Below are positions 13,417-14,075 of a DNA stretch of 43,351 bases, one piece after another (the first letter of the stretch is position 1; each line of letters opens with the position of its first letter). The notes below the pieces were generated by a model that was not told the origin of the DNA, did no database searches, and saw only the letters and a program-made list of their open reading frames with translations. Both the position numbers and the translations under genes were made by a program. Source of the stretch: Brachyspira innocens ATCC 29796. Lineage in GTDB: Bacteria > Spirochaetota > Brachyspiria > Brachyspirales > Brachyspiraceae. The stretch spans positions 1-43,351 of the forward strand of contig NZ_ARQI01000106.1 in NCBI RefSeq assembly GCF_000384655.1, given 5' to 3'.

Positions 13417-14075
13417 CTAATTAGAAACTTTCAAAGCCTTATCTATTAAAATTTTAAATCTAAAAATAGCATAATTAAGACCTAATCTCAAATAATCATC
13501 TTCATCATAACGGCAATATACAAATCTTCCGCTTATTATCTGATACCAAGCCTCAAGTATTATTTTGTTCCAAAACAAAGAAGCCGTATACAAACTTATA
13601 AGAGAATTATTAAAATAGCAAAAGTCATCATATTTTACTTCTCTATTGTTAAAAGCATAGTTTACAAGATTATCAATTTCTGTCTGCTCTATTATAGAAA
13701 ATTGAGATAAATTACTAGCTACATAATTCTTCTCTCTAGTAAAAAACTTTTTATCACCTGTGCAAACTCATTAATATCTTTAGTACTCCATTCATCAAGA
13801 AGACTTACAGCAAGTGTTCCATTTATTCTAACATCAAGCCATTTAAAAATATCATCATCAATAATCTTCTCTTCTTTCTCTCTTACATATTTAATATTTT
13901 CATTAAAGCTAGGGCGATTAATAGATATTACATCATCACTTTTAAACTTACTTCCTAAAGTAGAGCGGCTGAACACTTTAACAGGTACAATATTTTCTCC
14001 GTCATCTTTATAAACAATTTCTTCTACAATATATCTATTAAAAAAATCAACGCATTTAAAATCTAACTTTTCCAT
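13417..14075 (-). CDS. Predicted -1 frameshift fusion of tail assembly chaperones (G-T type), 219 residues
   Basis: Predicted join: codons 1-112 of the 118-codon upstream gene, then a -1 slip at TTTTTTA (13740-13746), then 107 codons read from 13740 down to the TAG at 13417-13419. The -1 frame is fully open over this stretch. It has no ATG at all, and its first TTG is about 50 codons in, so it cannot easily start on its own. The predicted extension starts TREKNYVASNL and contains LFWNKIILEAWYQIISGRF and DDYLRLGLNYAIF. Phages of the lambda type make gpG and gpGT this way, directly upstream of the tape-measure gene, which is exactly the position here. An ordinary frameshift mutation or sequencing error is the alternative. 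Confidence 0.7.
13719..14075 (-). CDS. Tail assembly chaperone-like protein (G-like zero-frame product)
   Basis: 118 residues, no signal peptide, mixed alpha/beta. It starts MEKLDFKCVDFF and ends FLLERRIM. No direct sequence match was recognised. The assignment comes from its size, its place upstream of a tape-measure-like gene, and the -1 slippery heptamer in frame at codons 111-112 near its 3' end. AAGGAG sits about 8 nt before the ATG. Most ribosomes would stop at the TAG just after codon 118, and a minority would make the fusion described at 13417-14075. Confidence 0.65.
   Translation of the reverse strand: MEKLDFKCVDFFNRYIVEEIVYKDDGENIVPVKVFSRSTLGSKFKSDDVISINRPSFNENIKYVREKEEKIIDDDIFKWLDVRINGTLAVSLLDEWSTKDINEFAQVIKSFLLERRIM
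13740..13746 (-). promoter_or_regulatory. Candidate -1 programmed frameshift site (T TTT TTA)
   Basis: On the minus strand the heptamer T-TTT-TTA has the canonical X-XXY-YYZ form and is in the correct phase: TTT is codon 111 and TTA is codon 112 of the zero-frame gene. A short complementary pair ACTAG/CTAGT lies just downstream. It could form a weak stem, but no convincing pseudoknot was seen by eye. Confidence 0.7.

Follow-up and report, generated by a model that had tools for sequence, protein, structure and literature searches.

The stretch of DNA analysed here (the window) comprises 43,351 nucleotides, positions 1 to 43,351 of contig NZ_ARQI01000106.1 of Brachyspira innocens ATCC 29796, and carries on its minus strand two overlapping frames, named G and T, followed by a gene for a tape-measure-like protein. 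The two frames are very probably a G/GT-type pair of tail-assembly chaperones made by a -1 slip and, together with the tape measure gene, a cassette of the Brachyspira gene transfer agent (GTA) VSH-1/BhGTA. The features of this cassette are as follows.

14076 to 14111, minus strand: leader with the ribosome-binding site AAGGAG; it is the last stretch common to GTA copies elsewhere, and beyond it, at a rearrangement breakpoint, the match to the upstream GTA cluster is lost.
13719 to 14075, minus strand: G frame, coding for a tail-assembly-chaperone-like protein of 118 residues; its orthologues are 62-98% identical to the window copy, and its predicted fold is confident (predicted local distance difference test, pLDDT, 91).
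13753 to 13760, minus strand: Shine-Dalgarno-like CAGGTGAT, 6 nucleotides upstream of the heptamer, a possible stimulator of slippage by predicted pairing to the 16S tail.
13740 to 13746, minus strand: slip heptamer T TTT TTA, which fits the X XXY YYZ phase, from the sequence and the comparison across the genus.
13417 to 13740, minus strand: T frame, 107 codons after the slip, without a start of its own; predicted as a mostly helical domain with one hairpin (pLDDT 87, best of five models).
12134 to 13285, minus strand: GTA tape measure protein of 383 residues, homologous to the C-terminal part of prophage tape measures of 801-883 residues; match to phrog_18891 with an E value of 0.01.

The ORF (open reading frame) at 13719-14075 has 118 codons, and TTTTTTA lies at an offset of 329 nucleotides from its ATG (329 mod 3 = 2), giving xxT TTT TTA over codons 110-112. 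A preliminary description of this DNA had placed the heptamer in slip phase near the 3' end of the gene, and the computed phase bears this out. Beyond the slip codons, the 0 frame has six more sense codons before its stop. No stop interrupts the -1 frame between nucleotides 308 and 656 of the gene, a span of 116 codons, of which 107 follow the slip, as previously described; its stop is at 13417-13419, and the G-T fusion would be 219 residues long. No ATG, GTG or TTG occurs in the first half of the -1 frame, the earliest TTG being at 13593.

The window has a G+C content of 27% and contains 180 copies of TTTTTTA against 91 expected, with 15 in-phase T TTT TTR sites in the 10,290 codons of the other genes. 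Such a heptamer is common in the window and alone therefore proves nothing. The -1 frame extends for 99 codons past the stop of G, which is the longest such extension among the 31 window genes (at most 24 codons in the other 30), and the segment stayed open in 0 of 20,000 mononucleotide shuffles. The open -1 frame is thus not a product of chance.

Conservation of the frame pair across Brachyspira

The search of the genus covered 26 Brachyspira genomes and found the G frame in 21 of them (the GTA-type copies), plus two divergent prophage-like copies. A further match in the window's own genome (G000, contig C78) was discarded as spurious, as it overlaps an ORF resembling a solute-binding lipoprotein. 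In all 21 copies, G ends six sense codons past the slip codons and, once past the slip, the -1 frame runs for 96-107 codons without a stop. The -1 frame opens just 31-49 nucleotides upstream of the G stop, with the slip site inside the overlap every time, and a shift would therefore have to occur within this overlap. The heptamer is T TTT TTG in 20 of the 21 copies and T TTT TTA in the window copy only. Among the compared sequences, the usual slip heptamer is thus T TTT TTG, and T TTT TTA is a variant of the B. innocens ATCC 29796 genome alone.

The heptamer is kept in 21/21 copies although the synonymous divergence (dS) to the farthest of them is about 1. The AGT codon ahead of it and its TTT codon are invariant. 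At alignment codon L113, TTG is used in 20/21 copies, compared to 15% of leucine codons that are TTG, and the next leucine codon uses four synonyms. The ratio of non-synonymous to synonymous divergence (dN/dS) has a median of 0.11 in G and of 0.23 in T, with a median dS of about 0.6, and 26 positions of T are invariant even when the prophage homologues are included. Judged from these substitution patterns, the T frame is under purifying selection.

The two prophage-like copies (L023 and L024, corresponding to L042 and L045) share 29% identity in G and 36% in T, and keep both frames and their overlap. Their heptamer, A AAT TTC, is canonical yet different, which brings the slip heptamer to 23/23 copies. 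No other argument for a programmed shift is as strong as this change of heptamer with retention of the arrangement. Comparison across the genus settles the reality of the frame pair, and -1 frameshifting almost certainly occurs at the cassette, as the preliminary description had proposed: the heptamer and both frames are conserved in the 21 GTA-type copies, and no relative with the upstream frame lacks a slip heptamer or the downstream frame.

Tape measure and probable membership in VSH-1/BhGTA

The tape measure protein matches phrog_18891 weakly (E 0.003-0.01), whereas the prophage forms match several tape-measure families with an E value of 1e-6, and the C-terminal part of those of 883 and 801 residues is 46-53% identical to the GTA form. 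In intact GTA copies the gene has 373-405 codons. Tape measure proteins span about 1.5 Å of tail per residue. With 383 residues, the predicted tail would be about 57 nm long, compared to the 65 nm published for the BhGTA tail (PMC9662315). The family matches of the prophage homologues, the weak phrog_18891 match and the length relative to the tail support the tape-measure-like neighbour noted before. This gene adjoins G/T in 7 genomes; in G009, G015 and G018, the gene after G/T is closely related to that at 12134-13285 of the window, and in six genomes of the B. pilosicoli clade the tape measure starts 1.4-2.0 kb from the GTA terminase gene. In one genome (G008, L078:6987-8121) the GTA tape measure gene is split by internal stops, the rest of the cluster being present.

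The gene labels used below (a letter followed by the length) were coined for this analysis. In Brachyspira hampsonii 30446 (G006), G/T is preceded by a328, b130, capsid347, d98, e127, f185, g90, h465 and i108, and followed by j293, k879, l208, a GH19 endolysin gene, n279, o110 and then two chemoreceptor genes. The general GTA order is a portal-like gene, the capsid gene, connector genes, h465, G/T and then either the tape measure or distal tail and lysis genes, including the GH19 endolysin. Locus L043 is also flanked by chemoreceptor genes. The published VSH-1 cluster is bordered by the chemoreceptor genes mcpB/mcpC (PMC4955376), and VSH-1/BhGTA consists of head, tail and lysis modules with a GH19-type endolysin and with terL outside the cluster (PMC4955376, PMC9662315). 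The gene order, the chemoreceptor flank, the GH19 endolysin and the outside terL thus match the published cluster. The h465 product weakly matches PF18906 (Phage_tube_2, E 6e-4), and its size and position fit Hvp53; according to the wording of PMC3532143 and PMC2897892, G may be the unassigned orfE, which adjoins hvp53. The order h465 (tube-like), G/T, tape measure is found in G009, G015, G018, G014, G002, G020 and the prophage-like loci, while elsewhere, including the window, it has been broken up by rearrangement.

The cassette is also lost together with the GTA. One genome (G001, 99% complete) lacks G, T, the tape measure, the capsid gene, the terminase and the endolysin together, and a second one (G003, 88%) shows the same joint absence, apart from a weak, different capsid match. 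Three others (G012, G022 and G024) have no GTA-type G, yet keep the tape measure and the terminase; the fragmented drafts G012 and G024 gave no match to a GTA capsid, and the G022 cluster carries a prophage-like tail. Synteny and co-occurrence together support membership of the cassette in BhGTA. That the cassette is a tail module in decay, left by an ordinary prophage and without relation to the GTA, is improbable: the window copy stands alone among housekeeping genes and prophage-like homologues exist, but orthologues lie inside the GTA cluster in most species, the presence is near-universal, the losses coincide with those of the GTA and the size range of the tape measure is narrow. Of the tail module proposed in the preliminary description, the tail-chaperone role and the tape-measure neighbour thus stand, whereas the stand-alone lambda-like prophage module gives way to a piece of VSH-1/BhGTA.

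In the genome of the window, contig C106 carries G/T and the tape measure, surrounded by unrelated genes; the head and distal tail/lysis genes are on C95 and the terminase genes on C119. Going upstream, homology to the GTA cluster is lost 36 nucleotides before the G start. The BhGTA gene set has been supposed to be probably dispersed and incomplete (PMC9662315). The set is scattered, as supposed, and the cassette supplies a part that was missing from it. An intergenic repeat, partly G+C-rich, occupies 14137-14480 between G and the gene for D-Ala ligase, and pieces of it recur near 41732-41997 of the window and between GTA genes in many genomes; it may have served as a substrate for the rearrangements by which the GTA genes became dispersed. 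The GTA-like cluster of G022 (L042, contig C50) has a 93%-identical capsid gene but a prophage-like tail module (39-52% identical) with an 883-residue tape measure and the slip site A AAT TTC, while an orphan GTA tape measure lies on contig C4. This cluster looks like the result of a tail-module swap.

Proposed expression of the T frame

Two other routes to a T product may be considered besides a ribosomal slip. Translation of T from an internal start, without any frameshift, is most unlikely: an ATG or GTG lies just past the G stop in G004, G005 and G008, but no start codon occurs at a position shared among the copies, those of the window, G018, G015 and G019 have none at all before the conserved T residues, and the slip sites are retained in the overlap. 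An independent T start was therefore rejected. Nor is it at all probable that the fusion arises by transcriptional slippage on the T run, which the T6 run and the AT-rich genome might favour, as six bases are short for RNA polymerase slippage and the A AAT TTC of the prophage homologue contains no long run. The idea that an indel in the T6 run, or a base-call error, split one ancestral gene into two pseudogene halves is refuted, despite the location of the break in a homopolymer and the broken h465 and terminase (TerL) genes of the same genome, by the same break, stop and frames in all 21 copies from separate assemblies, by purifying selection on both frames and by the lack of any relative with a single intact frame.

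The preferred interpretation, a -1 slip of the ribosome, may be assisted by the internal Shine-Dalgarno-like CAGGTGAT. Its predicted pairing to the 16S tail, the 3' end of which (GGATCACCTCCTTT) was confirmed in the genus, reaches -9.8 kcal/mol in 15/21 copies and is equalled by about 4-5% of synonymous shuffles, and its role as a stimulator is suggestive only.

Several observations weigh against a functional frameshift cassette of the GTA. This internal Shine-Dalgarno sequence is weak in 6/21 copies and absent from the prophage-like ones. No conserved RNA structure was found downstream, where the z scores were mostly weak and inconsistent and gave no consensus fold, and a pseudoknot or hairpin stimulator there was rejected. 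Neither profile nor fold searches matched G or T to any known gpG/gpGT chaperone. In the genome of the window, both h465 (contig C95, L070:3681-5074) and the GTA terminase gene (contig C119, L049:8421-9819) are frame-broken, by GTA decay or by draft indels, and the GTA may be non-functional in this genome.

Comparison with known systems and proposed role

The slip heptamer of lambda is G GGA AAG, different from the T TTT TTG/A of Brachyspira, and gpG/gpGT-type proteins share little sequence. Searches by fold, with the models of G and T against PDB and with that of G against BFVD, returned nothing significant, nor did profile searches of PDB, and no relatives of the fusion or of T were present in phage records and IMG/VR. 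The resemblance to lambda G/GT lies instead in a short 0 frame with a -1 slip near its 3' end, a start-less extension of similar size and a location between a tail-tube-like gene and the tape measure. Unlike the lambda genes, the cassette belongs to a domesticated, genus-wide chromosomal element and is often apart from its tape measure. In lambda, the G/GT tail-assembly chaperones are made by -1 frameshifting at a gpG:gpGT ratio of about 30:1 (PMC5009743), and a wider class in long-tailed phages is attributed there to Xu, Hendrix and Duda 2004. By its layout, position and selection, the cassette would function like G/GT, whether or not it descends from lambda gpG/gpGT.

The cassette-bearing clusters share the capsid, tail tube, GH19 endolysin, chemoreceptor flank, dispersed genes and outside terminase with BhGTA/VSH-1, for which the published descriptions consulted mention neither a pair of tail chaperones nor a frameshift nor a tape measure. 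Three GTA families are recognised, and BhGTA constitutes one of them, Brachygtaviriformidae; it can transfer antibiotic resistance from one intestinal spirochaete to another (PMC9662315). RcGTA of Rhodobacter capsulatus is likewise a domesticated siphovirus-like GTA with genes at several loci, but arose independently (PMC9662315); the literature searched mentions no frameshift in the tail genes of RcGTA. Similarly, our literature search, itself incomplete, found no report of frameshifting in VSH-1 or in GTA tail chaperones. The mechanism is thus known and the place new.

From the frames, slip site, conservation, selection, gene order and co-loss with the GTA, we infer slippage, its efficiency, the binding partners and the role in assembly as follows. 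Most ribosomes would stop after codon 118 and release G, while a minority would slip back by one base on U UUU UUA/G, pair anew and produce the G-T fusion. By analogy to lambda, many G and one or few G-T molecules would coat the 383-residue tape measure, the T domain would recruit tail-tube subunits and the tube would polymerise to the length set by the tape, about 57-65 nm, after which both chaperones would leave. The chaperones and the tape measure would fill in two missing tail parts of BhGTA, with a prediction of the measured tail length, and tie the orphan terminase to a tail gene. The cassette also offers a genus-wide natural series with a heptamer swap, in which the tuning of slip efficiency and tail length after domestication might be followed. 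Its T half would be hidden from automatic annotation.

A tandem repeat of 77-81 bp (up to 3.6 copies) extends as far as the G start in G009 (L040:7597-7869), and is also found upstream of G in G002, G004, G005, G008, G014, G018, G020, G021 and G025. The window keeps just its last ~36 nucleotides. Nothing credible was found in Rfam for the leader or the window stretch, and the inner-stem sequence has no other genomic copy in G004, G009 and G018. The repeat unit folds as a long hairpin (-16 to -21 kcal/mol) that would mask the ribosome-binding site (CTCCTTA with TAAGGAG), and two of its pairs show compensatory changes (C-G/U-A and A-U/G-C). It is conceivable, as a tentative proposal that we hold rather doubtful, that the domesticated GTA keeps -1 frameshifting genus-wide as a trait of the host chromosome, in a tail cassette mobile within the genome independently of the head genes, and adds a tandem hairpin hiding the ribosome-binding site, by which tail assembly would be gated at translation.

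Near the tape measure, two neighbouring lipoprotein-like genes of the window (10729-11271 and 11293-11847) have near-identical N-terminal ends, as tandem duplicates, and also adjoin the tape measure in G009.
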